Origin: Austropuccinia psidii
Taxonomy: Eukaryota; Basidiomycota; Pucciniomycetes; Pucciniales; Sphaerophragmiaceae
Length of the DNA stretch: 64,000 nt
Reading direction: 5' to 3'
Assembly: GCA_023105745.1 (NCBI GenBank)
Contig: JALGQZ010000003.1
Location: 46,892,696-46,956,695 of the forward strand
Part shown: one piece after another, positions 14,691-64,000 of the stretch
Layout: the number at the start of each line of letters is the position of its first letter
Position numbering within the stretch: position 1 is the first letter of the stretch
Notes under the pieces: model-generated
Databases searched by the model: none
Told to the model about the DNA's origin: nothing
What the model saw: the letters and a program-made list of their open reading frames with translations, nothing else
Made by a program: the position numbers and the translations under genes

Positions 14691-14696
14691 AAGTAG

Positions 14697-16691: not shown

Positions 16692-16727
<36 letters not shown>

Positions 16728-39381: not shown

Positions 39382-39517
39382 ATATTTACTTTAAAGACCT
39401 TTTAAAAAGATTCTAATTGGGCTTATTCAATAATAAATTATATTTATAATCATAAAATTATATAATAATTTTATATTTTATTGATTTTAAAAGCTATTGT
39501 GGCATTTGGAAAGAAAT

Positions 39518-40954
39518 TGTCAGGCTGAGTCTATATTGAAGTGGTAATAAGAGTATTTACAACTAGAATTATGACTGTGACACGTAGAAAATTGATTAAA
39601 AATAAGAGTTTCTGATTTTAAGGATGATTTATACTATATTTAAAGGGTTCTACTATTGGAAAATAGTGGTGGTGAGCGCTATTGAGAACCCAGGGTGCAA
39701 TCTTACCAGTTGAGTTACTATAATAAGAGTTACAATAATTAAATATATAATTATACCTGTTTATTACCCAAGAGTAAAACTGTTTTTGACAGTTTACTAC
39801 CTAGGGTATTCAAGAGCAAGATGAGGAAAAGCTTTTGGCTGTGAAAAGCCCTCCTTTTATCCTAAAATTGAGGTGGAAAGGCTGCTAGACCTTTCCACGT
39901 AGAGGAAGTGAAGATTTTTCACTCTCTATGACAGGCTTGTGGTTTGCAAACAGCCTGTATACCCTGTATTGGGCTCAGATGTGGTTTTGAAACCACATCT
40001 GGCCAGTTTTCACCAATACAGGGTGAATATTTTCATCTGGGGACCTCACAGCCTGATTCTGACATGTATGACGCGTAGAATGCTGTACAGAAACTGTATG
40101 GGACCCCAGTATTGACTGACATATGAGGTATTGAAGTAAAAACATGCTTCTTCGTCTATTTGACACCTCATATTCATGGTTATGGGATATTATCCCATGG
40201 TAAGGCTGTATCTGACAGCAGGTGGGATTTTGACCTTAAAATGGTCATAACTCTGTCAGTTTTTGAGATATCAAGCTCAAAGCTGGTTCATTGAATAGCT
40301 CTGTATGAGCTCTACACAATGGTACCCAACTTGACATGGTTATCATTAAATATGACAAAGTTATCCCATGTACAAGTATTTTTGTACATTGGCGTGGTCT
40401 GGGCAAAAGCTGTATTAAGCTTGTTTGGCCAATAACTTCTGTTGTAGTTGAGCTATGAGGAAATGGATGGCACCATCAGATAGCCCTGATTGTTCTCTTT
40501 CCAAAAAGACCCCACTTTAGGTATCTCACACTAAAACTGTAAAAGTTAGATGAGAGGTGAATGTTTTGTTCACCCTTATTTGGTCTGAATTTGACCATAA
40601 CTCAAGTAATACTGGTGCTAGCTCAGTTTGGCTAGCACCATTAGATACCCCTGGCTTAGAGCTTCATTTTGAATACCCATTTGATGGGGTTAAGCCTCTC
40701 CTTCTAGATTTTAGATGAGAGGTGAAAATTAAGGTTTATGCTCAGCAATAACTTTGAGCAGGAATAACTTTGTTATTTCTTGTCCTATGGTGATGGGACT
40801 TATATTTTCAGAAAGAGGTGAGTTTCCTCTTTCTTCTGATACCTTTTGAGTTAATTTGGCTCAGCTCCATGTTTTGGTGGTATTTGGCTATGCCATTGGT
40901 TTATGGTATTTTGGCTGTCATGCTTGTGCTCTGGTTTTGAGTCACAGGCTGACA
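39518..40954 (-). repeat. Element F 3' LTR
   Basis: It is 1437 bp, TGTCAGCC to CTGACA on the minus strand, nearly identical to 58417-59853. A polypurine tract (TTTTAGAGGGAGGGTA on the minus strand, 40955-40970) lies next to it. Confidence 0.95.
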
Positions 40955-43900: not shown

Positions 43901-44221
43901 AGGAGTGGTGATTTCCACTATTTCATTATGTCCAATCTTCCTGATGACATCCATGTCCAGGAGTTCATTGATGTGTTTTTCAATTTCTTTCCTGGTTTCC
44001 AGACTTGCTGGGTAAGGAGGTCTCCTCAGCATGGGTGGATAAGGTCTTTCCACATCCAGATATAGTTCTATATCATGGCCTTTAATCTTGCCTAGTGGCT
44101 CTTCACCAATGGCAAATGCTGGTCTGTTCTTCCTCAGCATCTTCAGTAAACTTAGTTTTTGTTTACTGGTGAGGGTAGTGCTAAACTGTCCCTCCTTGAA
44201 TTCCTTCAAGAGTTCTTCTAG
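40979..44221 (-). CDS. pol: Element F Pol: RT, RNase H, integrase, chromodomain-like tail
   Basis: This is the second part of one Gag-Pol frame, separated from the first by element E. Removing E and one TGGAT joins CAG GAT CCA to CTA GAA GAA with the frame kept. RT shows [26 protein letters not shown] and the active site [11 protein letters not shown]. RNase H follows ([25 protein letters not shown]). Integrase has the HHCC finger ([23 protein letters not shown]) and DDE residues in [15 protein letters not shown] and GLAERMIQ. The tail [23 protein letters not shown] resembles a chromodomain, which in chromoviruses directs integration to modified chromatin. There are no stops in 1080 residues. 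Confidence 0.95.
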
Positions 44222-44226
44222 TGGAT

Positions 44227-46235
44227 TGTAAGGTTTGACTATGAAACAATAAGTAAAAATTACTAATTTATTACTTATTGTACTCTGAATGTCCTTATAA
44301 TTGAAATGAATAAGATTAAAATAATAATAATAATAAAGAAATATTATTATTATGGTGTAAAAATATTATATTATTAAATAAATATAACAATATAATTAAT
44401 ATTATATGAAATTATAATATTGTAAATAATATATTAATATAAAGTAATTAATATATTATAAAGCTCTTTATTATTGTTACCAACAAATAATAAAGGCGTA
44501 AAAAACTGTTTTTCATAAATAAAAAACAATTAATAACAATAATATTACCAATATTAAAGTTATATATTAATATAAATACTATTTATATTAATTAAGAATT
44601 ATTAAGAGTAATAATAAGAGAGAAATTATTATAATAAGATGAAATAACCTACTTTTAACACTTAAAATAATAATTTTGAGATATTTTACGCCAAAAGAAT
44701 ATAATACAACTTTTTCAAATTGTATTTACAATAAAAAATAAAGGAAATTTACTAAATTTCTTGATTTTACGTGGAAATGAGTTTATAGAGAGATTTATGA
44801 CAAAAACAATTAAAGAATTGATTTAATCACGTAAAAATAGTGATTAATATTAAGATTGTCTTTGGTCTTTAATAATATAAGAGTTTTATATATAAAGAAT
44901 AAAGAAATTACCTTTTATTTAATTGATTTAATGTTTTTGATGCGTCTGAGGGGAAAATAGAGTAAAAAGAGCTCTATTTATAGTAAATACCTCCCTCCTA
45001 GAGTCCAAAAGGCTTCTAGTAGACGTGTACTGATCATATCCACTGGAATTGATCAATATTTTAAGGTTTGGAGATGATTACATCATTATCAAACCATATT
45101 ACATCATTATTACACCATTATTTAGAGTTATCACTATAACTCTAAAGTTGATGACATCAGAGGCTTGGCAGAACCCCAAATTTCGTGGATTTTATTAGTT
45201 TTAATCATAAACTAATAGTATTCACCAATTGTATCACTCTTAAGACTGTTAAACTTAAATTAAGGTTACAGTGTGTGATCATAACTGCTCAAATTAAGCT
45301 CAAACTTTGATCCTCAATAACTTTTAAGATTTACACGCTACAGAAATTCAGAGAGTGAATTCTGACAGCCTGGCATAACCTTATTATGCTTCCAAGAGCT
45401 TTTCATTACATCATCAAAACTCCAATTTTGATGATTTTTCTTGTAACTCATCTTTTCTGTCAAAATTCAATACTTTAAACTTCAAACCTTGATTTCAGGG
45501 GGTTATACCCTGAATTTAATAGTAAGAACTACATCATTCTTCACGAATGAACTAGTAGAATCCAACTGTATACTTTTTTTTAAGTTTGGAACACTTTCAC
45601 AACAAAGTGGTCAACAGCTCTGTTGATTTTTATCAATAATTCATCATAGGTTTTAACCTTGTTTATAATTTGTAAAATAAAGTTCATATCTGTGCTCTTA
45701 CAGTAATTACGTGGTAACTTTATTTTTGGTTCATCATTCTATCATGTATAGTTTAGAAGATATTAGCTATGATCCTTGAATATATGCGTTGACCAAAAAA
45801 GTGCATATATTCAGGTTAATTCCTTAAGTATCAACATTGGAAATTAGCTTATTAATTGTTTTATGTGTGGATTTTCATGGGGAATCCACTGGTACAATTT
45901 ATTTCACATTTTGTGCCACTAGTTCTTGAGATAAATAAGGTTTTATGGTTTTTATAAGGTATTATACCTTATAATTCCTTAAATATTGACTTTACAGATA
46001 TGCCATAAAAATGGTATATGTGTATTTTTCCATGGGGAATCCAATGGTATAATTTATTTTACATGTTGATTCATTTTATTTTAAGTTAAACCAATTTGTG
46101 TACCAATTTATGGTATTTTTTGTATATTTAAGTAATTATTCTTAATGGATAATTATTCTAAGTAATTTTAATATAATTATTCTGAGTATTTTTTGTGACC
46201 TTATTGGGTATGTGGTCATATCTCAAAGTCTCACA
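44227..46235 (-). repeat. Element E 3' LTR
   Basis: On the minus strand it runs from TGTGAGAC to CCTTACA. A TATA box lies at 44974-44982 on the minus strand. The preceding purine-rich GGTGGTAGGGAA on the minus strand (46236-46247) is the likely polypurine tract. Confidence 0.93.
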
Positions 46236-46353
46236 TTCCCTACCACCAAAAAAGATTGTACCACAATCTGATATGTGTGATTAGGGTATCATCCACTGTC
46301 CTACCTCTTCATTAGACTTTGTTAGTCTTGAAGCTCAATAATGCTTAACTTTT

Positions 46354-48075
46354 CTATTTTTCAGGCTTTCTTTCATGTCTGAACCTTCTTAGTAGTTTAT
46401 CAGCACTTGTTATATCTTTCTCAAGTAGCCATTCATCTTCTTGAGTTGAATTTCTATACCTTACAAGGTATTCCCTTTCTTTTTTGTTTCTTGTCCTTCT
46501 TTCTTTAAGGACTTTTACTATTTTCTTTTCTTCTCCTTCTTCCAAGGGGGGAATTTCAAGTGGGGGTTTATTTCTTAGTGGAAATAACTCCTTTTCACTT
46601 GAACTGTAAGGTTTTATTAGACTTACAGGGAAAGTTGGGTGTTTGTTTATTAGTTCACCTGTGAGTTCTAATTGCACAGCATTGGGTCCATGAAGTGCTT
46701 TTATCATAAATGGTCCTGCAAAGGAATCTTTCAATTTCTTTGGGCCTTTTATGTTATTGAAATTAAGGGTTGATACTAAGACCAAGTCTCCTCTTTTGAA
46801 ATCAGGTGGCTTATGACTTTTATCCCATCTTTCTTTTGCATATTTGAAAGAATCTTGCATACATCTGTTTGCATGGTGTCTTGCCTTGTCAAGCATTATT
46901 TTAAAGCTGCTTGCTGTTGGATGTATATCCACTAAGTCCTTTTTGAGGGTGTCATAAGGAAGTCTTGGATTCCAACCTTTCTCTAGCATTGCTGGTGTTT
47001 TTCCAGTAGAAGAATGGATTGATGTCTTATATGCCAGTTCAAGTGCTGGTATTAGTGTACACCAATCATGGGTAAAACCATCAGAATCTTTGAATTCTAG
47101 CCCATAAGCACAGAATCTTCTGATCATATCCTCTAGGGTCTGTATCATTCTTTCTGCTAGACCATCAGTTTGAGGATGATAAGCTGTTGAGAATGATAAC
47201 TTTGTCCCAAACAAGTTATGGAGATTTGTCCATAATGCTGAAGTGAACTTTGGGTCTCTGTCACTTATAATATTTTGGAATAAGCCTGTGTGGCTAATGA
47301 ATTTATTCCATATCATTATGGCTGTATCCATAGCTGTGTCATCTTTATGACATGGTAAGAACATGGGAGTTTTACTGTACCTGTCAACTAACACTAGGCA
47401 TGCATTATAACTCCTGTCTCCTCCTGGAGGTAAGGCTGTTACCCAATCCCTATGAACTATTTCCCATGGGGATTTTGGTTCTTGGATTTGGATCATCATT
47501 CCAAATTTCTTTCCTGTGGCTCTGTTGGCTTTTTGACATCTGTCACAGGTTTGGCAGTACTCTGCAACATCTTTCTTCCAATTTGGCCACCAAGAGCAGG
47601 TTTTCACCCCCTCTAGTGTCCTATCTTCTGAGAGATGTCCAGATGCAACACTGTCATGACACTCATGTAAAATAGTGTTTATTAGTGTTCTGTCTGTTAA
47701 GGCCATAACACATGTGTGTTTTGTTCTATGGTAAAGGATTCCATCAAGAGGGTGAAATCTTCCTTCATCATATGCCTTTTTCCATATTTCATCTAGTTTT
47801 GATGAAAGTGATGGATCTTTGCAGTCTTTCATTAGAAGTTGGCTTAAGATATGGCAATTTTTGTCTTTCTTATAACTTTCTTTAACTTGGTTAAAGAATT
47901 CTGTGCCAATGTCTGTAACACATATTCCTTCTATATGGTGCTCTTCTTGTGGTACCCATGCTGGATTGTCAGGGGTATTTGCTAGAGCCCATCTGCTAAC
48001 ACCATCTGCATTTTTATGAATATTTCCAGATTTATGAACAATAGTCATATTTCCTCTATATTCTTGGATAGCAAT
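46354..48075 (-). pseudogene. pol: Element E Pol, C-terminal part: RNase H end, integrase, chromodomain-like tail
   Basis: This is the same frame as the upstream pol part, after a TAA at 48076-48078 that replaces the CAA of the conserved [12 protein letters not shown]. Integrase is complete: the HHCC finger ([23 protein letters not shown]), the DDE core ([24 protein letters not shown]) and [16 protein letters not shown]. The C-terminus ([22 protein letters not shown]) resembles a chromodomain, and RRFRHER closes the protein. Without readthrough of the TAA, integrase would not be made from this copy. Confidence 0.93.
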
Positions 48076-50376
48076 TTACCATCTCAGCATATGTCTATTT
48101 GGAGTCTTCATATTTAATAGTGATTTCACAGCATTACAGTCTGTGATTACATCAAATACTGTGCCATCCAAATAATAATGCAGTTTTTCTAAAGCCCACA
48201 CTAGGCATAAGCATTCCATTTGGCTTGCTCCATACCTTGCTTCTGTTGGCTTTATCTGCCTTGAAATGAAACAAATTGGTCCTTCCACTGGTTTATCATT
48301 GATAATTTGTGTTTGGGGAAGTGCAGCACCTAGTCCTTCTCCACAAGCATCAATGTACAGTTTGAAGGGTAGTTTCCAATCTGGCATCAGAAGAAATGGG
48401 GCATTTGTTAAGGAATTTTTCAATTCTTCATATGCCTTGACTCTTTCTTCTGTCATCTCATAGACTGTTTGTTGGTCACATAGCTTATACAAGGATTTAG
48501 CAATCTTTGCAAAGTCCTTTATATGCTGTCTATAGTAACCAGCAAACCCTAGAAATGATTGCATTTCTTTTTTGGTTTGAGGCATTGGTTTAAGTAGTAC
48601 TGCTGCTACTTTATTTTTGTCTATGCCTAGACTAAGGCCAGATACTACATGTCCTAGTGCCTTTAATTCACTATATGCAAAATGACATTTTTTCAAGGAA
48701 ATTTTCATATTCACTTGGACTATTTTTTGTAGTACCCTTTCTAGTCTTGTAAGGTGATTTTCCCAAGTTTCTGAGCAAACTATGATATCATCAATATAGA
48801 TAATCAACCATCCTTCTGATAATTCTTCAGGGAATATGGTATTCATCATTCTTTGATAATGGGAAGGTGCATTTTTTATTCCAAATGGCATTCTTAAGTA
48901 TTCAAAAAGTCCACAATGGACTATTATTGTTAGTAGTTTCTTGGCATTGTCTGTTAAGACATTTTGATGAAAACCCTTAAGAGCATCCATAGCTGTGATG
49001 AACTTAGCTTGTGACAATTGGGTCAATGTCTCATGGATTCTGGTTATTGGATATCTGTCTGGAATGGTATAGGTATTCAGGGCTCTGAAGTCTCCTACCA
49101 CCCTTGATTTTCCATTATGCCAAGTTATAATGACAGGTGTAGTAACTTCTACTTGTTCATTATGTCCAACCTTTCTTAATACTCCAAGGTCCATTAATTC
49201 TTTAATGTGCACCTCTAAGGCTTCTCTAGCTCTTGGACTGGCTGGATAAGCAGGTCTTCTTAATAAAGGTGGGTAAGGTTTTTCTACATTAAGAATTATA
49301 TCCACTTCATGTCCAATTATGGCACCTAGTGGCTCTTTGTCAGTTGCAAAGGCATTTTTATAGTTAAATAAGAGGTCAATCAATTTTTCTTTCATTTTTT
49401 CTGTTAATTCTTGATTGAATTCTGCCTCTTTAAGTTGTTCAGATATAAAAAGTTCCTTTTCTGGAATTTTTTCTTCATTCTTAATAACTGTGATTTGTTT
49501 TTTGTTATTTAAGAATCCAAACTTTTGTCTTTTGTTATCTCCTATGGTAAAATATCTATCCTTTTGGTTGGAGATATCTATACCATAGATTGATAAGTAG
49601 TCATTCCCAAGTATGAAATGATTACTAGTACAGTTGTCCATTACTACAAACTCTACTTTAATTCTGACACATTGTGAGGGGTGAGGAAAAATTAGTGTTA
49701 AATCAATTATTCCAAGGGGCTTCATGCTCTCACTTGCACTACTAAATTTGACACCTTGTATTGGCATAAGTTTTTCTTGCCAGTCTGGGACAATGGTTTT
49801 TAAATAACTTTTGCCAACACAAGTGCAATATGCTCCTGTATCCAAGTTAACCTTTCCTCCTTGGTTATCAACCATAACAATACTTATACTTGATTTTCCA
49901 GCTGTATATCCCATTCCTCTTGCAGGTTTGGTTCTATACATTTTGGCATCTTGTATGTTTGTCAGATTTTTGTCAGATGTTCCAACTTGTGGCAAGTTTG
50001 AATTAACATCCAGTACTTCATAAATTATATCAATATTATTAATTTGTGCATTAATTATATTGATTTCATCACTTTCAGAGCTTTCTGACTCTTCTGTCTC
50101 TTTTTCAGAGTCAGATTCCTCTTCTTTGTCATTGTGGTTTTCTGTTTCCACAATTTCATTAATCTTTGCTTTTTTAAGGCAATTATTGGCTAAGTGTCCA
50201 ATACCTCCACATTTATGGCATTTTCTTTGCTCATTATTGCTGGATGTATTGGGCTTAAAGGATTCTTTTGATTTATCTTTTTTGATAAATGGTTTATTTG
50301 GGCTTTTAATGTCCAATTTTTTCCAAGTTCTGCCAATTTTTGTTCTTGTCACTATATCTTCTAGTGCATTTATATA
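48076..50376 (-). pseudogene. pol: Element E nucleocapsid, protease and reverse transcriptase
   Basis: It continues the Gag frame after a TAG at 50377-50379. In order it has a CCHC knuckle, [14 protein letters not shown], an acidic linker, the protease motif [13 protein letters not shown], then RT ([37 protein letters not shown]) and the first half of RNase H ([14 protein letters not shown]). All catalytic motifs are present. It ends at the TAA in 48076-48078, within NRHMLRW-stop. Only the two nonsense codons separate this copy from an open Gag-Pol, and both are single-base changes relative to the family. Confidence 0.93.
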
Positions 50377-52152
50377 CTATTCTGTGGAACATGGTTCTAT
50401 ACACCTGCTTCTTAGGGCATGCTCTAGTTCCCCTCCACATTTTTTAAGTATTTTCATATGCACCATCTTCTGTGACATTTCTGGGTACAGTGCATTAAGC
50501 CTTTCAACTTGTTTTAAGAACCAAGTTAAAGGTTTATCTTTCTCTGGGTCAAAGAAAGAATTTTCAAATGCATTTTCTATTTTATACCTCCAGGCATCAT
50601 TTGCCCATTTGGTGATTATTTCTTGTTTCCACCAAGACCAGGTATTTTTACCATTTGTTTGTCTTATGCCATAATACCATCTTTTTGCAGATTTCTCAAA
50701 CAGTGAATGTAATCTTGCAGTGATTAATTCATCTGGTATGGCATAGTCTTCTTGTAACATGTCAATTGTTTTAATAAATGACATATGGTCATATTCACCT
50801 TCTCCTGTGAATGTTGGCCATTCCTTTAATTGAGGTGCTTCCTTCATTAAGACTTGGTTATTATCTTGGTGACTCAAGTCTGTTATGAAAGGATTTGACA
50901 ATTCCTCTTTTGTTTTAACAGGGCTTCTTATATGAGAAAATGGTGTTGATAACTTTGGCATATTTAAATTAGCCTCATTAATTTTATCCATTTTTTCTGT
51001 AATAAGCCTTATTTCACTTTGAATATCATCTTTCAGATGCATTCTTGCTTCATCACTTTTTTCCACATGGTCCAAAAGTAATTTTTGGTGTGATGAAGTC
51101 TTTTCTTCAAATTTTTCTACAGAAATACTTAATTTATTTAATTTTTCTGTAAGATTGTCAATACTCACATCATAATTGATTGTCAAAGTCTTGTCTTTGA
51201 TATCTTTTATGTATTTATACAATTCTTGTTGTCCTTGTATTAATTTTTGAGTATTGTCAATTAAACTCTTTGGTTTATTATTTTCAACAATAAACTTAAT
51301 GTTGTCAATTTCTTTCTTGTTTTGCACATCAATTTTTGTTGAAGAAGATAAATTGTTATTTATTTCTTGTAGTGATAATAAACTATCTTTAATTTCTTTT
51401 AGAGGTAATATACTATTTTTAATTTCTGTTAAAGTATTTACAACATCTTTGGACAAGGTTATTTCTTTGGGAAATGAGGTTGTCTCATTCTTTGCTCTTC
51501 CTTGTCCTTGAATTCCATCAAGGTTCTGGCCATGTTGAAAACATTTTCCATGGCATCCTTTTGGATTCTTGGGATTCTGTAGCTTGGAGAATATGGTTTC
51601 TTCCAATGCTTTTTCTTGTTCTTCTTCCCTTCTTGGGGAAGTGGGTTGGCTTGGGGCTTGCTGGTAGAAGCTACTGGGGCTTCTTCCTTGGTTGCCTCCC
51701 TCTTTTTGGCATGGTAGTCCTTGATTTTTTTGATTTGAGGTTTGGATGACAGTGTATTCCATCCATTGGAGTATTTTACTATCTCCTCCTCTTTGAGGAA
51801 CTTTTTCAGGATGTGCCAGGAGCTCATCACTCCTTGGTGTATTTGAGGAAACATTTCCCAATCTTTGTCCTTGTACACTGTGCAATACTGCTTGTACTGG
51901 CTCATGTAGATGTCTATTTGAGCCCTCTGAATGTGATTTGTACCTGTTTGAGTTACTCATACTTAGTTCTAATTCAGGCTCAGATATCATGGGCATTTCT
52001 GGGACTTGCCTTTGGGATAAGGCACTTCCTTGTGTGGATTCTGTTCCACTGGGGATATTGCCCTTTCTTTTCCCTTTTGAGGGATCAGTTCTACCTCTGA
52101 GTCCAGCTCCATCTGATTGGATGGAGTATTGGGAACCTCTTCTAGTAGTCAT
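50377..52152 (-). CDS. gag: Element E Gag
   Basis: The frame opens with MTTRRGSQYSIQSDG. The first 230 residues are Gly/Ser/Pro/Gln-rich and overlap another frame (see the accessory gene). A long coiled-coil-type region follows (KEIDNIKFIVENNK to ITEKMDKINEAN), then the capsid-like domain (WPTFTGEGEYDHMSFIKTID to WSWWKQEIITKWAND). It ends at TAG 50377-50379, inside CIEPCSTE, before the zinc knuckle. The start codon at 52152-52150 lies inside the last 11 nt of a predicted 85-nt intron, so this protein needs RNA that keeps the intron. In that RNA it is the first AUG after the leader exon. Confidence 0.9.
   Translation of the reverse strand: MTTRRGSQYSIQSDGAGLRGRTDPSKGKRKGNIPSGTESTQGSALSQRQVPEMPMISEPELELSMSNSNRYKSHSEGSNRHLHEPVQAVLHSVQGQRLGNVSSNTPRSDELLAHPEKVPQRGGDSKILQWMEYTVIQTSNQKNQGLPCQKEGGNQGRSPSSFYQQAPSQPTSPRREEEQEKALEETIFSKLQNPKNPKGCHGKCFQHGQNLDGIQGQGRAKNETTSFPKEITLSKDVVNTLTEIKNSILPLKEIKDSLLSLQEINNNLSSSTKIDVQNKKEIDNIKFIVENNKPKSLIDNTQKLIQGQQELYKYIKDIKDKTLTINYDVSIDNLTEKLNKLSISVEKFEEKTSSHQKLLLDHVEKSDEARMHLKDDIQSEIRLITEKMDKINEANLNMPKLSTPFSHIRSPVKTKEELSNPFITDLSHQDNNQVLMKEAPQLKEWPTFTGEGEYDHMSFIKTIDMLQEDYAIPDELITARLHSLFEKSAKRWYYGIRQTNGKNTWSWWKQEIITKWANDAWRYKIENAFENSFFDPEKDKPLTWFLKQVERLNALYPEMSQKMVHMKILKKCGGELEHALRSRCIEPCSTE
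51459..52112 (-). CDS. Element E overlapping accessory protein, spliced, about 195 aa, unknown function
   Basis: This frame overlaps Gag. After removal of intron 52142-52226 the first AUG in the mRNA is 52112 (MELDSEVELIPQKG). Four in-frame stops (TGA, TAG, TAA, TGA) then lie within a 66-nt GC-AG intron, 51944-52009. Splicing it joins YPKG to TNHIQRAQIDIYMSQYKQY in frame, and the frame runs to a stop at 51459. Element D has the same frame, with about 11 changes over the last 148 residues. The protein is basic and polar, with WEMFPQIHQGVMSSWHIL, GWN and a Lys-rich stretch. I do not recognise it. The upstream exon (52227-52376) is also open in this frame but has no ATG. Confidence 0.6.
51944..52009 (-). 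other. Predicted 66-nt GC-AG intron in element E accessory gene
   Basis: On the minus strand AAAG/GCAAGT begins the intron and CAAACAG/GT ends it, with an ACTAAG branch-like motif inside. It contains every stop between the two open segments. Element D has the same donor and acceptor at 62730-62795, also 66 nt. Confidence 0.5.
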
Positions 52153-52226
52153 AATTAAAGAATAAGAAAAAATAAAAGTATTTTAGAATAAAATTCTTTT
52201 ATGGCAATTTAGAAAGAGGTACTCAC
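52142..52226 (-). other. Predicted 85-nt intron carrying the Gag start codon, element E
   Basis: The minus strand reads GAAG/GTGAGTACC at the donor and ATGACTACTAG/AAGAGG at the acceptor. The Gag ATG is in the last 11 nt. Removal joins GATTCTGAAG-type exon sequence in frame (SE-EEVPNTP) to the overlapping accessory frame. Element D has the equivalent intron at 62521-62597 (77 nt). Confidence 0.6.
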
Positions 52227-52376
52227 CTTCAGAGTCTTGAATGGTGGGTCCTGGAAAGTCTAATTTCTTAGCTTTCTTTCTTTTGGTGATAACTGGTGTT
52301 GGAGAACTTTGACAAGTTTCTTCCACCAACCTCTCAACAGTAGCTTGGTTGTCTTCTGTTGGGTTATCTTCAAACA

Positions 52377-53554
52377 CTAAAAAAGACAAATAAATATAAG
52401 TCTTTTTATAAGAAGTGTTATTTTTGGCAAGATATGGCAATTTTCCACGTAGAAATTGCTTTTATATCTTTAAAAACTTGAAATGAATGAAGAAATGAAT
52501 AAAAAGGAATAAAAATAACTTTGTTATTGGCTTTTAATATTTTTTAATATTTTTTATTTTTAAGGAATAAAATAAAAATTAATATGATTCTTTATAAAAT
52601 TAAATTATAATAAAAATTATTTTTAATTTATAAATTATCTTTTTTAATCACTAGAGTCACTCAAAGAAAGTTCTTGCAAGTCTAAGGATGTGAAAAACCA
52701 CGTGTAAGACAGTACAATTGCTTTCCAAATGCCTCAATAGCTTTTAAAATCAATAAAATATAAAATTATTATATAATTTTATGATTATAAATATAATTTA
52801 TTATTGGATAAACCCAATTAGAATCTTTTTAAAGGTCTTTTAAGTAAATATCACGGCCAGGCCCCCAAATGCAAGGTTTGACTATGAAACAATAAGTAAA
52901 AATTACTAATTTATTACTTATTGTACTCTGAATGTCCTTATAATTGAAATGAATAAGATTAAAATAATAATAATAATAAAGAAATATTATTATTATGGTG
53001 TAAAAATATTATATTATTAAATAAATATAACAATATAATTAGTATTATATGAAATTATAATATTGTAAATAATATATTAATATAAAATAATTAATATATT
53101 ATAAAGCTCTTTATTATTGTTACCAACAAATAATAAAGGCGTAAAAAACTGTTTTTTATAAATAAAAAACAATTAATAACAATAATATTACCAATATTAA
53201 AGTTATATATTAATATAAATACTATTTATATTAATTAAGAATTATTAAGAGTAATAATAAGAGAGAAATTATTATAATAAGATGAAATAACCTACTTTTA
53301 ACACTTAAAATGATAATTTTGAGATATTTTACGCCAAAAGAATATAATACAACTTTTTCAAATTGTATTTACAATAAAAAATAAAGGAAATTTACTAAAT
53401 TTCTTGATTTTACGTGGAAATGAGTTTATAGAGAGATTTATGACAAAAACAATTAAAGAATTGATTTAATCACGTCAAAATAGTGATTAATATTAAGATG
53501 GTCTTTGGTCTTTAATAATATAAGAGTTTTATATATAAAGAATAAAGAAATTAC
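52377..53554 (-). other. Predicted leader intron of element E
   Basis: The donor AAAAG/GTAATT lies in the LTR about 60 nt after the TATA box, and the acceptor TTTTTAG/TGTTTG lies before the first exon frame. Splicing removes the LTR end and primer-binding site, so the spliced RNA could be translated but not reverse transcribed. Between the primer-binding site and the acceptor (52377-52851) I see no gene. Confidence 0.55.
52852..52867 (-). other. Primer-binding site of element E
   Basis: The minus strand reads TGGGGGCCTGGCCGTG, 2 nt after the 5' LTR. It is identical to D and F. Confidence 0.65.
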
Positions 53555-54861
53555 CTTTTATTTAATTGATTTAATGTTTTTGATGCGTCTGAGGGGAAAA
53601 TAGAGTAAAAAGAGCTCTATTTATAGTAAATACCTCCCTCCTAGAGTCCAACAGGCTTCTAGTAGACGTGTACTGATCATATCCACTGGAATTTATCAAT
53701 ATTTTAAGGTTTGGAGATGATTACATCATTATCAAACCATATTACATCATTATTACACCATTATTTAGAGTTATCACTATAACTCTAAAGTTGATGACAT
53801 CAGAGGCTTGGCAGAACCCCAAATTTCGTGGATTTTATTAGTTTTAATCATAAACTAATAGTATTCACCAATTTTATCACTCTTAAGACTGTTAAACTTA
53901 AATTAAGGTTACAGTGTGTGATCATAACTGCTCAAATTAAGCTCAAACTTTGATCCTCAATACCTTTTAAGAGTTACACGCTACAGCAATTCAGAGAGTG
54001 AATTCTGACAGCCTGGCATAACCATATTATGCTGCCAAGAGCTTTTTATTATATCATCAAAACTCTAATTTTGATGATTTTTCTTGTAACTCATCTTTTC
54101 TGTCAAAATTCAATATTTTAAACTTCAAACCTTGATTTCAGGGGGTTATACCCTGAATTTAATAATAAAAATTACATCATTATTCACGAATGAACTAGTA
54201 AAATTCAACTGTATACTTTCTTTTAAGTTTGGAACACTTTCACAACAAAGTGGTCAACAGCTCTGTTGATTTTTATCAATAATTCATCATAGGTTTTAAC
54301 CTTGTTTATAATTTGTAAAATAAAGTTCATATCTGTGTTCTTACAGTAATTACGTGGTAACTTTATTTTTGGTTCATCATTCTATCATGTATAGTTTAGA
54401 AGATATTAGCTATGATCCTTGAATATATGCGTTGACCAAAAAAGTGCATATATTCAGGTTAATTCCTTAAGTATTAGCATTGGAAATTAGCTTATTAATT
54501 GTTTTATGTGTGGATTTTCATGGGGAATCCACTGGTACAATTTATTTCACATGTTGTTTCATTAGGTCTTGAGATAAATAAGGTTTTATGGTTTTTATAA
54601 GGTATTATACCTTATAATTCCTTAAATATTGACTTTACAGATATGCCATAAAAATGGTATATGTGTATTTTTCCATGGGGAATCCAATGGTATAATTTAT
54701 TTTACATGTTGATTCATTGGTCTTTAAGTTAAACCAATTTTTGTACCAATTTATGGTATTTTTTGTATATTTAAGTAATTATTCTAAGTAATTTTAATAT
54801 AATTATTCTGAGTCTTTTTTGTGACCTTATTGGGTATGTGGTCATATCTCAAAGGCTCACA
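52870..54861 (-). repeat. Element E 5' LTR
   Basis: It is 1992 bp. A TATA box lies at 53617-53625 and a splice donor at 53555/53554 on the minus strand. It ends CCTTGCA where the 3' LTR has CCTTACA. Confidence 0.93.
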
Positions 54862-57474
54862 TGGATCCTGTGAAGATATGTGGTATATATCAAGTGAAAA
54901 TTTCTTTTCCTTGTTGGTACCAATGGTAATGTGCCTGTTTTTACTGTTGTGAATGTCTATGCCATACATCCTCTGGTAATCTGTTCCCAGTAAAAACCCT
55001 TGGATGTGGGCATCTTCAAGCACTACAAACTCTGGGTTGAGTCTGATATTACCCTTCCTGTGGGGTATAATTATCTCTTTGATAATTGTCCCAATGGAAG
55101 TCATCTTCCCTGATGCACTTTTGAAGTTCCTTGCTTTAGTGGGCAAGAGCTGCTTTTCCCAGTTTGGGAAGTGGTTATCCAGATAATTTCTGGCCACTAT
55201 GGAGCAATTTGCTCCACTGTCAATGATCAGTGGGTGCTGAGCATTGTCAATACATACAGTCATTTTTGTGGCTGTTCCATGTATATATGCCATTCCTTTG
55301 GTTGGTGTAACCAGGAATGTTTGTGCATCTTGTGTGTGTTTGCACAAGTTCTTGTTGGCAGTGTCCTGTGGCATGCCTGCTTCCAACTGTATATCCTGGA
55401 TTTCCAATGGGGTTTCCTCTTGGTATTCCACTAGAAATTCCTCTCTTGGGTCTTGATCATCATCAGATGGTTCTCTAATGGCATCTCCCATAGAGTCTGA
55501 TTCAGAATCCTCTGTTGGAGGTTCTTCTTCAGGGACTTTTTCTATAGCATAGACTTTTTTCTTTGCTTTTGGACAGTTGTTGGCATAGTGGTCTGTTGAA
55601 CCACAATTGTGACAAGAATTCTTCTTCTTTGCCACTTCTGCCACTCTTTCTCTGGGTTTGTCTTTAAACTCCACCCTGAAAGGTTGTTTCTCTTTGAAAC
55701 TACTGCTTCTATATGGGGTGAATTTCCCTATATTAGTCCTTTTCCTTATGTCTTGTAAGGTATTGGCTATGTCATCTAGAGTGCAATTTTGGTTGCATTT
55801 GCATTTCACTGCATGCTCTAATTCTCCTGGTAGTTGTGTCAGAAGTTTGTGATTCCTCATCTGGATGTTCATCTGAGGATCAATGGCTTTAAGTCTTTTA
55901 GACTGTCTGAGACACCACTCATATGGATCTTTGTCCACAGAGTATTTGTCATTTTGAAATGACATGGTCTTTTGCCATATCCAAGTTCCATTACTGTACT
56001 TTTGGATTATTTGACTCTTCCACCATGGCCAGTTCCTTCTTCCATGGATTTCTTTCATTTCTGTATACCATATACTTGCATGACCTTTAAATGCAGTATT
56101 CAATCTAGCAGTAATCCAGTAGTCTGGTATGCTTGGTACATCAATGAAGAGTCCATCAATATAATCTATGAGTTCCATATGATCATATTCTCCTGATCCA
56201 GAGAATTTGGGCCAGTTTGAGGCCTCAGGAAGCTGTTTCAAGGCTTCCTTCTCTGAATAAGACATGCCATCTCCATCTTGGTATTGTGATGGAGATCTTT
56301 CCTTATTCAACAACATGGCATCTGGTTTGATGTCATCTGGTTGATATGGATTCTCCATAGCTTGGCCTTGTGGTTGGGACTTTAAGCTATGGTAGGCATT
56401 AAACAATATCTTAATGTCTTGATCCAGACACTCCCTGTCCCTTGTGCTGTGGTGTTGTTCTTCAAAGACTTGGTTCAGTCTTTTGTTGGATTCTTCAGAG
56501 GCTTTGCTCAGTTGAGCATATCCTTCTTGAAGATTCTTAACTATTTGTTCCAAGGAGGCTTGAGCTTGTCTCATCCTCTCTTGGCTAGCTTTAATTTCTG
56601 CAAATTGCTTTGCAGATTGTTCAGCATATTGGGACACTTGTAACCACAGTGTATCACTGTTGATGTTACTCTCAGATGTGAAAATGTTATTTTCAGTCTG
56701 AGTGGGGGTAATGTTTCTATTACTAGGACTACTGATTATAGAGTGGTTTACAACTACTTCTGGTTCTTGTGTACTTCCTTTACCAAATCCAACAGCTTCT
56801 GGATCATGGGGTCTGACTCTTTCCTCCTCTGGTTGAAGGAGGTTTTGTTCTTGCCCTTGTTTCCTTGTCTTCTCCTGGAAACTTCCTGGAATTGTGAAGA
56901 ATGGTGACTCTTGGCCACTGATCTGCTGGTATCTGAATGGTGTGAAGCCACTGGAGAGTTGATTTGGCCTGCTCCTTGTGAACCTGAAGGAATCTGAGTA
57001 GGCCCTGTCTGGGTCAACTGTTCTTCTATAGCTAGGATAGTGGCTTGATTCTCCCTTATCCTCTGTGCCCTTGCCTCCAGGAGTCTGTGCTGCCTGGTAG
57101 GATTCCAACCTTTGGTGATTACCATAAGGTCTTTGAAGTCTATCTCTTTGAGACAGATCTTCTGGCAACTTGATCCCAGTTCTGCCCAGTGAGTTGCTAG
57201 GTTTAACCTCTTGTTGTCCATGCTCCATTGAAATAAATCTTTGAGGAGTTGGTGGATCTGAAGAACTTGATCTATATCCTTCCAGTCCTCTGGTTTGAGG
57301 TTTCTGTTGAATTGGAGTGTGAATGGCAAGGTTGATATTATCTCCCTCATTGTTTTGCCATCCACCACTGTGTCCAGGGTGTCCTCTTTCAGGTCTTCTG
57401 GTTCTGGACAATCCTCCTCTATCCTCTGGCTGGTTCCTTTGGAAGCCAAGGTCTCTGAGATATACAGGGGACAT
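54862..57474 (-). CDS. gag-pro: Element F Gag and protease
   Basis: This is the first 871 codons of an open Gag-Pol frame. The N-terminal part (MSPVYLRDLGFQRNQPEDRG) is low-complexity and overlaps an accessory frame. A coiled-coil-like stretch (QYAEQSAKQFAEIKASQERM to NKRLNQVFEEQ) precedes the capsid-like domain (WPKFSGSGEYDHMELIDYID to WPWWKSQIIQKYS). A CCHC knuckle, CHNCGSTDHYANNC, and the protease motif LIIDSGANCSIVARNYL follow, with GFLLGTDYQRMYGID near the end. Element E cuts the frame after CAG GAT CCA. The ATG at 57474-57472 lies within the last 20 nt of a predicted 68-nt intron, so Gag would come from RNA that keeps it. Confidence 0.93.
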
Positions 57475-57822
57475 ATCAGTGTTTGCAAGCAGTCAAAAAC
57501 TTTATGTTCTTTGGGTATTTACCTTTGACTGTGCCTTGTACAAATTTACTTTCTTCTGACTTGGGCAGTTTGCCTTTGCAAGTTACAACTGGGTTAATAA
57601 TTGTAATCTTTCCTGTACAAGTGGTTAAGGTTGGTTTACCTTGTATGGATGCAGAGTTTCGTGGTTTTCTACTTCTCTGGGTGGCTATTGGTGTCCACTT
57701 CTTGGCTGTGATGAGACCTTCACTGTGCCTCTTTCCTTTGCCCTTGCTGCCCTCTGGTTCTGAGGGTTTCACTGGTGTGTTGGCCTGTGACTGGGTCTCA
57801 AGTGGGATGTAATTTTCTTCCA
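56754..57822 (-). CDS. Element F overlapping accessory protein, spliced, about 330 aa, unknown function
   Basis: Exon 57822-57523 begins after a TTTCAG acceptor and is open throughout (VEENYIPLETQSQANTPVK to VQGTVKG). Removing intron 57455-57522 joins it in frame, through a GAG codon, to TLASKGTSQRIEEDCPEPED, which stays open to a stop at 56754. That second part overlaps Gag in another frame. Visible features are NLKPEDWKDIDQVLQIHQLL, KGWNPTRQHRLLEARAQ and a Lys/Arg-rich C-terminus. It shares gene position, a GWN motif and a basic tail with the D/E accessory protein. No in-frame ATG exists in the first exon; the first downstream one is TMREII near 57351. The true start is unknown. Confidence 0.6.
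57455..57522 (-). other. Predicted 68-nt intron carrying the Gag start codon, element F
   Basis: The minus strand has donor AAAG/GTAAAT and acceptor TATATCTCAG/AGACC. A second AG two bases further (CAGAG/ACC) would instead put the upstream exon in the Gag frame, so acceptor choice could select either protein. The Gag ATG is inside the intron. Confidence 0.55.
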
Positions 57823-58655
57823 CTGAAATCAAGGCAGAAAAGGGAGGACTTATGTCAGCTAAGACTTTTTAAAAATGCTGGTTTTTCACGTCTAAGATTG
57901 GCCTCTGGGCTTGTATGTTACTACAATGTGCCCTGTATAATGACAGTGTAATTGAATCAACAATTTCACGTCAGAATTACAGATTTTGGTACCCTGTCAC
58001 ACTGTTTGTGTGCCAGTATCCCACAGATACACTTGTGGTTTTCAAGTGTATTCTGTACTAGTGGTTTTGTATAAGTGTTATTGAGTTAGCAATACACTTA
58101 TTCCACGCCTCAACTGATGGTTTTTCAGTCAGAGGTGTCCTTATTCAGTCAAGAATACAGGACTTTATTGATGGCTTATGTATTTTTATATACAAAACAC
58201 GCCAAAAATGTATAAATTCAGTGGGTATTAGCCACGTGAATAATACTCTTATAATATGAGTATATATAAAAAAGGATAAATATATATAAAATATATATTT
58301 AAATAAAGAAATTACGCCTAAAAAAGATAAAACACTTGGTTAATAATTCATAAAGAGAGAAAATACTTACTTATAAGGTCCAATAAGAGATTTAAAACAC
58401 GGCCAGGCCCCCAAAATGTCAGGCTGAGTCTATATTGAAGTGGTAATAAGAGTATTTACAACTAGAATTATGACTGTGACACGTAGAAAATTGATTAAAA
58501 ATAAGAGTTTTTGATTTTAAAGATGATTTATACTATATTTAAAGGGTTCTACTATTGGAAAATAGTGGTGGTGAGCGCTATTGAGAACCCAGGGTGCAAT
58601 CTTACCAGTTGAGTTACTATAATAATAGTTACAATAATTAAATATATAATTATAC
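57823..58655 (-). other. Predicted leader intron of element F
   Basis: The donor AACAG/GTATAA is in the LTR and the acceptor GATTTCAG/TGG is at the first exon. The intron spans the LTR end and the primer-binding site. The organisation matches D and E although the sequences differ. No gene is seen within 57823-58397. Confidence 0.5.
58398..58413 (-). other. Primer-binding site of element F
   Basis: The minus strand reads TGGGGGCCTGGCCGTG, 3 nt after the LTR end. It is the same 16-mer as in D and E despite unrelated LTRs. Confidence 0.65.
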
Positions 58656-59853
58656 CTGTTTATTACCCAAGAGTAAAACTGTTGTTGACAGTTTACTACG
58701 TAGGGTATTCAAGAGCAGGATGAGGAAAAGCTTTTGGCTGTGAAAAGCCCTCCTTTTATCCTAAAATTGAGGTGGAAAGGCTGCTAGACCTTTCCACGTA
58801 GAGGAAGTGAAGATTTTTCACTCTCTATGACAGGCTTGTGGTTTGCAAACAGCCTGTATACCCTGTATTGGGCTCAGATGTGGTTTTGAAACCACATCTG
58901 GGCAGTTTTCACCAATACAGGGTGAATATTTTCATCTGGGGACCTCACAGCCTGATTCTGACGTGTATGACGCGTAGAATGCTGTACAGAAACTGTATGG
59001 GACCCCAGTATTGACTGACATATGAGGTATTGAAGTAAAAACATGCTTCTTTGTCTATTTGACACCTCATATTCATGGTTATGGGATATTATCCCATGGT
59101 AAGGCTGTATCTGACAGCAGGTGGGATTTTGACCTTAAAATGGTCATAACTCTGTCAGTTTTTGAGATATCAAGCTCAAAGTTGGTTCATTGAATAGCTC
59201 TGTATGAGCTCTACACAATGGTACCCAACTTGACATGGCTATAATTAAATATGACAAAGTTATCCCATGTACAAGTATTTTTGTACATTGGCGTGGTCTG
59301 GGCAAAAGCTGTATTAAGCTTGTTTGGCCAATAACTTCTGTTGTAGTTGAGCTATGAGGAAATGGATTGCACCATCAGATAGCCCTGATTGTGCTCTTCC
59401 CAAAAAGACCCAGCTTTAGGTATCTCACACTAAAACTGCAAAAGCTAGATGAGAGGTGAATGTTTTGTTCACCCTTATTTGGTCTGAATTTGACCATAAC
59501 TCAAGTAATACTGGTGCTAGCTCAGTTTGGCTAGCACCATTAGATAGCCCTGGCTTAGAGCTTCATTTTGAATACCCATTTGATGGGGTTAAGCCTCTCC
59601 TTCTAGATTTTAGATGAGAGGTGAAAATTAAGGTTTATGCTCAGCAATAACTTTGAGCAGGAATAACTTTGTTATTTCTTGTCCTATGGTGATGGGACTT
59701 ATATTTTCAGAAAGAGGTGAGTTTCCTCATTCTTCTGATACCTTTTGAGCTAATTTGGCTCAGCTCCATGTTTTGGTGGTATTTGGCTATACCATTGGTT
59801 TATGGTATTTTGGCTGTCATGCTTGTGCTCTGGTTTTGAGTCACAGGCTGACA
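58417..59853 (-). repeat. Element F 5' LTR
   Basis: It is 1437 bp and nearly identical to the 3' LTR, with roughly a dozen visible differences. A TATA-like GGATAAAAGG on the minus strand (about 58755) precedes the splice donor at 58656/58655 by about 100 nt. Confidence 0.95.
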
Positions 59854-60190
59854 GAAATTGTACTGTCTTACACGTGATTTTTTCACATCCTTAGACTTGC
59901 AAGAACTTTCTTTGAGTGACTCTAGTGATTAAAAAAGATATTATATAAATTAAAAATAATTTTTATTATAATTTAATTTTATAAAGAATCACATTAATTT
60001 TTATTTTATTCCTTAAAAATAAAAAATATTAAAAACCAATAAAAAGGTTATTTTTATTCATTTTTATTCATTTCTTTATTCATTTCAATTTTTTAAAGAT
60101 ATTAAAGCAATTTCTACGTGGAAAATTGCCATATCTTACCAAAAAATAACACTTCTTATCAAAAGACTTATATTTATTTGTTCTTTTTAG

Positions 60191-62520
60191 TGTTTGAGGA
60201 TGTAAGGTTTGTCTATGAAACTCTTGATAATAGTAACAATATCAAGAGTACTATGACTGTCCTCAGTAGAAATATATAATATAATGAAATATTATAACCA
60301 CAAATTCAAATATAATTATTATAAATAATTATATAAAAAAATAAATTTAATTATTATTATAATAATATAATAATAAAAAAAAATATAATAATTATAATAA
60401 ATTATAATTATTCTATTATTGTTATAGTCACTGACAGTTATAACAATAAGAAGTGTAAAGCTCTTAATGAGACAATTACACGTGGAAAATAAGAATATTA
60501 ACCACTTATAAATAATATAAATATTATTTATAAAAAGAATTAATCACACACAGTGCAGAAATAATTCTTTATAGAATAAAATTCTATATAAAAAAACTAA
60601 TAATAGATAAAAAAAATATAGAACTTTAAAGAAAACTTACTTATAATATTTATTTAATACAACAAGTTATAAAACAACAGTTATTATATTAAATAATGAT
60701 TATAAGTTAAAAACACGCCAAAAATCAATAAAATCAAAGATAAAACAACTTTTTATACTAAAATTTATGATTAAAGAGTTTTTGAGAGGAATTTGTGGAT
60801 TTTAAAAGATATTTAAGATGATAATTTTATATAATAAAAGTTATTATAGATGATTACAACAATAATCTGAATTCTATGACTTCAATTCTTTAATTTAATA
60901 AATAAAGAATAAAAATAACTTAAGAATTACTTTTAATAATAAGATTTTATATTTAATAAAACTTTACCTGTTTAAATGTCTAATATGATTGGATTTATTC
61001 TGAATGATGGACAAAAACAGTGATGAAAAGACTCTTTTTATGTCTACAGAGCAGTTCTCATGATTCATAATGGATGTAGAGGGCGTGCTCAGGTCAAAAC
61101 TGAAAAACCATGCTTAAAAATTAAGTTCTTAACTTAAGGCAACTTATTTTTACTTCCAATTTAAAGTTACCAGTGTTATTCTTAACTCCAAGTAACTTTA
61201 ATCCTCATTTAGTTTAATTATTTTAAGTTTTAATATAAAATAAGTTTATTTATATTAAAGTTCATCACATGAACAACATAAAATCAGAGTTTCAAGCAGA
61301 AATCTCTTAAACTGAATTTTTAATTAATTTTTAAAGAAATCATAATTTTCTTTAAGCTTAATTAAAAAAGTAATTTTCCAGGCTAATTACCCAGGAAACT
61401 TATTAATAAAAGATACTTAAAATTTAATTTATATATTGATAATATTAAATTCTAAATTGTGTGAAATTTTCAAGCAAATCCATTAAGATTTGGATTTTTA
61501 ATGAATTTTTGAAGTTATTACTATTTTTCCACGTAAAATAGCAATACACACAAAACCTTAAGTTTTGATAAGGTTTTGATGATTGAAACCTTAAAGTTTT
61601 AAGCTTATTTAAGCTTTTTAAGCTTGATTAAGCTTTGACAGTTCTTAAAACCTTGATTCCAAGCCTGCTTATTGGGATTTACCCTCTTGGCAGCTTGAAA
61701 TTCTTATCCAATTTAGGATAAAATCAGTTTAAACCTTAAGGTTGGATCAAAGTCTAATCTTAAAGTTTAAATAAGGTTGAAAATCCTCCAATACAGGTGG
61801 ACAACCTTAATTGAATCATTGCAGATCCAAAAAGTTGGGTACCCCAGCTCTATTTGGTCTTTTTCCTTTGTCCCACCTTTTTGCGTGGATTTTGCCCTTT
61901 TATTTATTTAAAGCCATACTATGGCCTTAAACCCTTTTAAATTGAGCTCACGCAGGATTTACATTCTGTATGGCAAATCCTTAGCCAATTCAGTAAATAT
62001 ACACCACACCTCAATTTTAACTAAAATTTTGGTAAAGTTGCATAAACCTTATGTAACTTTAAATTTAAGCTTAATTAAGCTTAAATTTAACAATTTAAAA
62101 AAATGTTAAAAAAGTTACATTAGTACTGTGAGATTCTTAAATCTTCTAATAACACAAGAAATAAGTGTTTTTGGGTATAACACCCTATGGGTGTACCCTA
62201 GGTTATTTTTGGTGTAGAATCCAAAAATGACATAATAATTATAACTTTGTTTATCCAAAAAAAAGTTATACTTATTTTTTATTATTTTTTATTTTAAATT
62301 CAACTAAAAAGTCTGTTTAAGACAAATTTAATTGTTTATAAAATCATTTGTGGCCTTATGGGTATGTTAAACATACCTCACAGGCTCACAGAGGATAACC
62401 AAACTACTGTTGAGAGATTGGTGGAAGAAACTTGTCAAAGTTCCCCAACACCAGTTATCACTAAAAGGAAGAAAGCTAAGAAATTAGACTCTCCAGGACC
62501 CACCATTCAAGACTCTGAAG
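60191..62520 (+). pseudogene. Element D upstream accessory exon, split by solo LTR C2
   Basis: The exon starts after TTTTTAG at 60190. Ten bases later solo LTR C2 interrupts it. The exon resumes at 62391 and runs to the GTGAGC donor at 62521. It encodes EDNQTTVERLVEETCQSSPTPVITKRKKAKKL, then PTIQDSE, with no ATG, and matches element E's exon 52227-52376. E has an extra NPTE-type segment that D lacks. The LTR insertion would disrupt this exon in D. The upstream leader (39382-39517 and 59859-60190) contains no gene. Confidence 0.55.
60201..62390 (-). mobile_element. Solo LTR, family C copy 2
   Basis: It is 2190 bp, with the same ends as C1 (TGTAAGG to GGCTCACA) and flanked by GAGGA (60196-60200 and 62391-62395). 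It is minus-oriented. Internal sequence matches C1 throughout, with small indels. Confidence 0.92.
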
Positions 62521-62586
62521 GTGAGCACCTCTTTTATAATTGCCATAAAAAGAATTTTTATCCTAAAATACTTTTATTTTTTTATT

Positions 62587-63948
62587 ATGACTACCAGAAG
62601 AGGTTCCCAATACTCCATCCAATCAGATGGAACTGGACTCAGAGGTAGAACTGATCCCTCAAAAGGGAAAAGGAAGGGCAATATCCCCAGTGGAACAGAC
62701 TTCACACAAAGAAGTGCCTTATCCCAAAGGCAAGTCCCAGAAATGCCCATGATATCTGAACCTGAATTGGAGCTAAGTATGAGTAGCTCAAATAGGTACA
62801 AATCACATTCAGAGGGCCCAAATAGACATCTACATGAGCCAGTACAAGCAGTATTACACAGTGTACAAGGACAAAGATTGGGAAATGCTGCCTCAAATAC
62901 ACCAAGGAGTGATGAACTCCTGGCACATCCTGAAAACGTTCCTCAAAGAGGAGGAGATAGTGAAATACTCCAATGGATGGAATCCACTGTCATCCAAACC
63001 TCAAATCAAAAAAATCAAGGATTACCACACCAAAAAGAAGGAGGCAACCAAGGAAGAAGCCCCAGTAGCTTCTACCAGCAAGCCCCAAGCCAACCCACTT
63101 CCCCAAGAAGGGAAGAAGAACAAGAAAAAGAATTGGAGGAAACCATATTCCCCAAGCTACAGGATCCCAAAAATCCAAAAGGATGCCATGGACAATGTTT
63201 TCAACATGGCCAGAATTTTGATGGAATTCAAAGACAAAGAGGAACAAAGAATGAGACAACCCCATTTCCCAAAGAAATAACCTTGTCTCCTGATGTTGTA
63301 AATACTTTAACAGAGCTTAAAAATAGTATTTTACCTCTTAAAGACATTAAAAATAGTTTATTATCTTTCCAAGAAATAAATAATAGCTTATCATCTTTAA
63401 CCAAACTTGTTGTACAAAATAAGAAAGAAATTGATAACATAAAATTTATGATTGAAAATAATAAACCAAAAGTATTAATTGACAATACTCAGAAATTAAT
63501 ACAAGGACAACAAGAGTTGTACAAATACATAAGTGATATCAAAGAAAGAACTTTGACAATCAATTATGATGTGAGTATTGATAATCTTACAGAAAAATTA
63601 AACAAATTAAGTATTTCTGTAGAAAAATTTGAAGAAAAGACTTCATCACACCAAAAATTACTTTTGGACCATGTGGAAAAAAGTGATGAAGCAAGAATGC
63701 ATCTAAAAGATGATATTCAAAGTGAAATAAGGCTTATTACTGAAAAAATGGATAAAATTAATGAGGCTAATTTAAATATTCCAAAGTTATCAACTCCATT
63801 TTCTCATATAAGAAGCCCTGTTAAAACAAAAGAGGAATTGACAAAGCCTTTCATAACAGACTTGAGTCACCAAGAAAATAACCAAGTCTTAATGAAGGAA
63901 GCACCTCAGCTGAAAGAATGGCCAACATTCACAGGAGAAGGTGAATAG
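62587..63948 (+). pseudogene. gag: Element D Gag, with nonsense codon
   Basis: The frame begins MTTRRGSQYSIQSDG, very close to element E Gag. It shows the same Gln/Ser/Pro-rich start, coiled-coil-type middle (KEIDNIKFMIENNK to ITEKMDKINEAN) and the beginning of the capsid-like domain (WPTFTGEGE). A TAG at 63946-63948 replaces the Tyr codon of GEYDHM, and the frame continues beyond it (DHMSFIKTIDML) to the window end. The start codon is inside the last 11 nt of the predicted intron 62521-62597. Confidence 0.9.
62627..63280 (+). CDS. Element D overlapping accessory protein, spliced, unknown function
   Basis: This is the same design as in element E. The first AUG after removal of intron 62521-62597 is at 62627 (MELDSEVELIPQKG). 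A 66-nt GC-AG intron (62730-62795, AAAG/GCAAGT to AAATAG/GT) removes the in-frame stops. The frame then runs through TNHIQRAQIDIYMSQYKQY to a stop at 63280. The last 148 residues differ from E at about 11 positions. The overlap with Gag means both frames are constrained. The protein is basic, with GWNPLSSKPQIKKIKDY and a tail ending RQPHFPKK. Its function is unknown. C2 disrupts the upstream exon but not this part. Confidence 0.55.
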
Positions 63949-64000
63949 GACCACATGTCATTTATTAAAACAATTGACATGTTACGAGAAGACTATGCCA

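Follow-up and report, generated by a model that had tools for sequence, protein, structure and literature searches.

We analyzed a 64,000-nucleotide (nt) window of the Austropuccinia psidii genome (contig JALGQZ010000003.1, positions 46,892,696 to 46,956,695; coordinates below are those of the window) that holds element F, a Ty3/gypsy long terminal repeat (LTR) retrotransposon split in pol by a second gypsy element, E. One F transcript from the LTR very probably serves two messages (we put this at roughly 0.87), one for Gag(-Pol) and a spliced one for a second protein read in another frame that overlaps gag. A first-pass annotation of this DNA had proposed such a compact splicing switch between Gag-Pol and an accessory protein, and the proposal is supported by genomic copies that lack the introns, by conserved splice sites, and by apparent purifying selection on the second frame.

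Splicing around the Gag start codon of element F

The annotation had drawn a 68-nt intron around the Gag ATG (57474), and these borders proved exact on the sequence, running from the donor AAAG/GTAAAT at 57522 to the acceptor TATATCTCAG/AGACC at 57455. Removal of this intron, I3 (57455..57522, on the minus strand like the other exons and introns of F and E), joins a stretch open from 57822 to a +1 open reading frame (ORF) that ends at 56754, with no stop across the junction. The downstream part, exon 3 (56754..57454), contributes 232 full codons and a stop, where about 230 codons had been claimed, and overlaps approximately the first 240 codons of F Gag. The claim that no ATG precedes the Gag ATG in the exon also held, there being none between 57822 and 57475 on the minus strand of F. 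The supposed 300-nt exon is indeed open, but it is not a single exon: a frame-neutral 66-nt intron, I2 (57574..57639, GTAAAC...AAAG), lies within it and separates exon 2a (57640..57822), where accessory coding begins, from the 51-nt exon 2b (57523..57573). Upstream, a 548-nt leader intron, I1 (57823..58370, GTAAGT...TTTCAG), follows exon 1 (58371..58740), which has no ATG and includes a primer-binding-site-like (PBS-like) sequence, TTTGGGGGCCTGGCCGTG (58415-58398). Spliced genomic copies revealed both I2 and I1, neither of which had been annotated, and also fixed the donor edge of exon 1; we infer its transcription start, downstream of a TATA-like box.

We searched the 1.015-Gb assembly (84 contigs) for the predicted I3 spliced junction, using 30 bases and allowing up to three mismatches. 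The junction occurs at 18 genomic sites, compared with 0 for the reversed sequence and 0 for one decoy junction, obtained by joining the sequence on either side of a 68-nt block chosen arbitrarily in exon 3; the genome thus carries no fewer than 18 F copies from which I3 is precisely missing. Eight of these copies lack I1, I2, and I3, two lack I2 and I3, and eight lack I3 only (I2 is precisely absent in 10 of 18 and I1 in 8 of 18); each interval that F copies lack is bounded by GT and AG in F. When searched alone, the leader (I1) junction gave 7 sites (reversed control 0), 6 among the 18 and 1 new. Pairwise divergence of the 16 compared spliced copies is mostly 4–17%, with the closest pairs at 2.0 and 2.5%, and they therefore represent mostly independent events. 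Because retrotransposon RNA gets reverse-transcribed, spliced RNA is able to leave intron-less DNA copies, and the F copies lacking introns look like fossil complementary DNAs (cDNAs) of spliced RNA. Their exact borders and combinations of intron loss fit reverse-transcribed spliced RNA: splicing of F really happens. Moreover, among the 120 A. psidii MF-1 gene models listed as relatives of the second-frame protein, at least 12 cross I3 at one same residue.

Leader splicing also creates a start codon. From ~58740 to the Gag ATG, the only ATG in F is at 58351, inside I1, where it opens a 3-codon ORF; this single ATG in 1266 nt compares with a shuffle mean of 17.9, and the leader of E has 0 in 1468 nt, against 15.3. 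When the end of exon 1 (...TTATAA) is joined to TGGAAGAAAATTAC, an A/TG start codon spans the junction, and an ATG stands there in 8 of 8 leader-spliced copies even though the copies differ in sequence. Spliced RNA does lose the Gag AUG, as the annotation had argued, but it is not left without a start, since leader splicing supplies its own. The fully spliced message encodes 311 amino acids from MEENYIPLETQ... (333 if I2 is retained), and the C-terminal three quarters of this second protein overlap Gag in the +1 frame. In exon 3, the next AUG after that of Gag begins a 4-codon ORF (57347-57361) whose stop overlaps a second-frame AUG (ATGA), a possible termination–reinitiation site; that second-frame AUG is the start (MRE...) of 11 among the 120 listed MF-1 models.

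The second frame in F and in E

The splice sites are kept among divergent F copies. We compared 30 copies (L039-L068) found with the accessory-frame protein, a query outside which exon 2 and the splice sites lie; this query biases overlap statistics, which were therefore not used for these copies. At I3, 28 of 30 copies have the GT of F, 29 of 30 its AG, and 28 of 30 its Gag ATG. For I2, the corresponding counts are 27 of 28 (GT) and 28 of 29 (AG), and for I1, 24 of 27 (AG), with the TG of the created ATG present in 27 of 27. As a baseline, all dinucleotides of 57820-57461 are as in F with mean frequency 0.736 and median 0.857. Conserved sites together with selection led us to reject a chance ORF.

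The selection test drew on 41 sequences. The window copy was joined by 7 near-identical copies found by DNA, 16 of the 18 spliced ones, and 17 of 20 (L069-L088) ascertained by gag-only DNA similarity, which may flatter the gag-only region. Three copies were left out for partial alignment (L071, L079, and L080) and two for coverage below 0.85 (L023 and L029). Changes were mapped on a tree by parsimony, and terminal branches were taken as mostly postinsertion decay. On internal branches, the overlap accumulated 0.306 changes per site vs. 0.596 in gag-only DNA (p=3.7e-9), whereas on terminal branches, the two were equal at 1.41 per site each. In the accessory frame, the ratio of nonsynonymous plus stop to synonymous changes was 123/89 on internal vs. 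718/258 on terminal branches [odds ratio (OR) 0.50, p=1.3e-5]; the OR was 0.39 (p=3.3e-5) for the spliced and near-identical subset and 0.59 (p=0.007) when spliced copies were excluded. Exon 2, outside Gag, is most variable at the third position of accessory codons (in exon 2a, 0.194 vs. 0.112 and 0.139). This pattern of substitutions indicates that the second frame of F was under purifying selection in active lineages.

Element E repeats the layout in a second family. Its first intron (52142..52226, 85 nt, GTGAGT...ACTACTAG) encloses the E Gag ATG at 52152, and its second (51944..52009, 66 nt) is of the GC-AG type. All four accessory-frame stops of E between 52141 and 51459 fall inside the GC-AG intron, beyond which the last accessory exon (51459..51943) overlaps Gag in +1. 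If transcription starts below 53680, the first AUG after intron removal is at 52112, in the accessory frame. The predicted junction occurs at 5 genomic sites (L009-L013; reversed control 0), with the 85-nt intron precisely absent; the GC-AG interval is precisely absent in L010 and L011 and retained in L009, L012, and L013. Across seven copies (E, a second window copy E2, and L009-L013), gag-only DNA has 29/23/66 variable sites at the three Gag codon positions (of 237/238/238), the last accessory exon 44/10/19 (of 161/160/161), and the GC-AG intron 1/1/4 (of 22 each). The last accessory exon differs from gag-only DNA (p=1.7e-6) and from the GC-AG intron (p=0.04), and judged by codon position, it bears the mark of the second frame. 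The second proteins of F and E gave no BLASTP match (best E-value 9.3), and a comparison of their profiles aligned only 14 columns around GWNP (probability 1.2%); the two are therefore not detectably homologous.

Searches with the second-frame proteins found 959 relatives for F and 746 for E, and in each case, all 120 listed are A. psidii MF-1 hypothetical proteins. Many of the listed proteins are second-frame fragments, and some are hybrids that start in the Gag frame (MSPVHLR..., MTTRRG...). A scan of IMG/VR returned no relatives.

A proposed regulator and competing explanations

Under the mechanism that we propose, unspliced RNA would be both genome and Gag(-Pol) mRNA and would be packaged, its nearly AUG-free leader letting ribosomes reach 57474. 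Splicing out I1, I2, and I3 would delete the Gag AUG and build A/UG over the exon 1/exon 2 junction, and the spliced RNA would yield a basic 311-amino acid second protein, so that one promoter gives two messages. We infer that the second protein of F is translated. By analogy with retroviral Rev and with CERV of the element Cer1 (below), the role that we favor for it, at less than even odds, is that of a regulator promoting export or use of unspliced RNA, or setting its timing, in a feedback of that kind. To keep splice sites around its own Gag AUG, an element must be in control of how its RNA is spliced and exported, which would favor a regulator. The basic ends (pI 9.85 and 10.76) are only suggestive of a Rev/CERV-type role in RNA export. 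It is possible, at less than even odds, that a retrovirus-like early regulatory gene for export or timing, in a splice-only frame over gag, arose or persisted in two or more divergent fungal families, E and F among them, which number thousands of first-look candidate copies; in F, its start codon would exist in spliced RNA alone.

Several results weigh against these readings. Parsimony on near-star trees is crude, and the tested subsets overlap one another. The 17 gag-only-ascertained copies with F gave no signal, either in the accessory frame (OR 0.94, p=0.8) or for overlap vs. gag-only DNA (OR 0.87, p=0.45, on 82 internal overlap changes). Purifying selection in both overlapping frames had been set as a check by the first-pass annotation, along with a second frame that does not fill with stops as an arbitrary one would. 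Selection on the second frame (the OR of 0.50 above) was borne out, but stops in that frame were not significantly fewer on internal than on terminal branches (4 vs. 46, p=0.087). As for Gag in the overlap, stops were rarer on internal branches (1 vs. 49 terminal, p=0.001), but the nonsynonymous-to-synonymous ratio was not depleted (OR 0.89, p=0.57). With stops avoided and replacements undepleted, the N-terminal extension of Gag may be less tightly constrained than the second frame. Accessory-like codon periodicity also occurs in I2 and in the pre-ATG part of I3. The intron borders of F are thus not marked by periodicity, and some F messages may keep I2 or I3.

In E, the short exon 52141-52010, also accessory, has no pattern (4/3/4 variable sites of 44 each), and of the seven E copies, five had been selected through the spliced junction. 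No spliced-leader copy of E was found, all 10 of 10 candidates being acceptor point mutations; a donor within the E LTR would remove the PBS, and leader splicing would then leave no DNA trace. The accessory ORFs of the window had no Pfam match over cut-off, four Pfam families each matched 1 of 40 A1 members (E-value 0.0047 or worse), the accessory-protein profiles A1 and A2 matched no solved structure at an E-value below 0.6, and AlphaFold models of the accessory proteins were poor [predicted local distance difference test (pLDDT) 46.5 and 51.0]. These comparisons yielded no homolog whose function is known.

It is unlikely, but not greatly so, that the switch is real and its product, rather than being a positive regulator, is self-limiting or serves mere Gag dosing. 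The second protein and Gag use common coding DNA, and since splicing deletes the Gag AUG, each spliced RNA lowers Gag output; Ty1 p22, reportedly a self-limiting factor, would be the model. However, selection appears to act on the sequence of the second protein, beyond AUG removal alone, and a purely self-limiting protein would be hard to maintain across many competing copies.

We consider it improbable that splicing is real but incidental, with cryptic leader introns that destroy some genomic RNA and a +1 frame that is a by-product of Gag codons. Given those codons, the open frame is only moderately unusual in length in F (P 0.0006, 0.009, and 0.02 in three synonymous-codon randomizations) and likewise in E (P 0.01–0.05). 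Moreover, intron-less copies are few beside the thousands of first-look candidates (3945, of which 40 were scored), and the gag-only-ascertained subset lacks the selection signal. Nevertheless, second-frame selection is found in E as well as in the full F set, accessory-frame periodicity extends to exon 2, outside Gag, the four E stops all lie in an interval precisely missing from two copies, and one design recurs in two families. That the intron-less copies are ordinary deletions or gene conversions rather than cDNA of spliced RNA is scarcely credible: deletions of at least 20 nt do exist (6 among 37 copies examined), but these lie elsewhere with varied ends, whereas the intron-less copies lack, in various combinations, exact GT-AG or GC-AG intervals from three sites in F and two sites in E, and random deletion was rejected on the one decoy junction without a match.

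Structure of the elements, precedents, and implications

Self-BLAST delimited the 5′ LTR of F at 58413..59853 (minus strand; its true inner edge is ∼4 bases inside the BLAST limit) and the partner 3′ LTR at 39514-40954. The two are 1.44 kb long and 98.3% identical (24 substitutions in 1441 base pairs in a comparison of LTRs and flanks), and the element is flanked by a 5-base pair target-site duplication, ATTTC; two LTRs with a short target-site duplication are as in Ty3/gypsy elements (Metaviridae). The Gag(-PR) frame (54863..57474, minus strand) starts at ATG 57474, contains a candidate zinc knuckle, and is interrupted by the nested E. Its zf-CCHC match is barely over the Pfam cut-off, and the aspartic protease match is under it. 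The pol continuation (40979-44226) encodes reverse transcriptase (RT), RNase H, and integrase, with Pfam domains in the Ty3/gypsy order RVT_1, RNase H, H2C2, rve.

Element E (44227..54862, minus strand, by self-BLAST; target-site duplication ATCCA) has LTRs at 52870-54862 and 44227-46236 that are 97.1% identical. E sits in F pol and so must be younger, yet the divergence between its LTRs is slightly greater (41/1993 vs. 24/1441 substitutions). Directly after each 5′ LTR, the PBS-like sequence is identical in F and E (52852-52869 in E), although the LTRs and leaders differ. The E Gag-Pol frame has in-frame stops at 50377-50379 and 48076-48078. The second copy, E2 (plus strand, 59850-64000), is interrupted twice, once where F inserted and once by a 2.2-kb repeat (60201-62390, 92% identical to 261-2433). 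By eye only, the window also holds ORFs resembling Copia-type RT/RNase H fragments (2341-3222 and 36552-37268) and a further gypsy-like gag-pol set (6345-21176).

In orthoretroviruses with Rev/Rex-type regulators, the Gag AUG lies in an intron, and spliced RNAs give the regulators, whereas unspliced RNA gives Gag-Pol. F resembles them in arrangement, with an intronic Gag AUG and a product switch between spliced and unspliced RNA; retroviral introns span gag-pol, unlike the small introns of F. As read from DNA copies, F shows the two marks of a retrovirus-type switch, loss of the Gag AUG and opening of another frame. Drosophila gypsy and ZAM splice out a pol-size intron to reach env.

Copia Gag RNA is a subgenomic spliced mRNA that drops pol (PMC3735527); gypsy/ZAM and copia thus share subgenomic spliced mRNAs with F, but the introns that they splice are pol size. 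In barley, the Copia element BARE1 has a facultative 104-nt intron whose splicing places a stop just after gag, giving Gag alone (PMC3735527). As in F, a small intron alters the coding of the RNA, but in F, splicing removes the start of Gag and gives access to another frame. Another precedent is Cer1, a Ty3/gypsy element of Caenorhabditis elegans: a spliced mRNA whose exons 1–3 lie in the gag frame encodes its CERV protein, which is needed to export unspliced Cer1 RNA (PMC10309623). Cer1 and F share an accessory protein made from spliced mRNA, exons partly in gag, and Gag from unspliced RNA; in F, however, the introns are short and lie at the start of gag, the accessory frame is not the gag frame that it overlaps, and splicing makes the AUG. 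For the soybean gypsy element Diaspora, leader splice sites were predicted, their relevance unknown to the authors, who in 2005 described introns upstream of gag as unreported (PMC1142308). Extra ORFs of plant LTR elements have also been reviewed, with no case of overlap with gag among those consulted (PMC7264820).

Searches of the open-access literature, mostly at abstract level, turned up no account of a mini-intron at the gag AUG whose removal gives a second frame over gag, or of an AUG created by splicing in an element of this type. Within those searches, the first-pass statement that no such Ty3/gypsy element is known thus stands for the exact layout, but the principle of a splicing switch is already known from retroviruses and Cer1/CERV; what is new is the mini-intron, the overlapping frame, and the splice-made AUG.

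Intron-less copies let the splicing history of such elements be read from DNA alone, and the layout of F makes the balance between genome RNA and mRNA testable. Many A. psidii MF-1 “hypothetical proteins” are parts of the second-frame proteins of two retrotransposons. If dual-frame coding with a splice-made start is true, retrovirus-style control of early and late genes would reach fungi.
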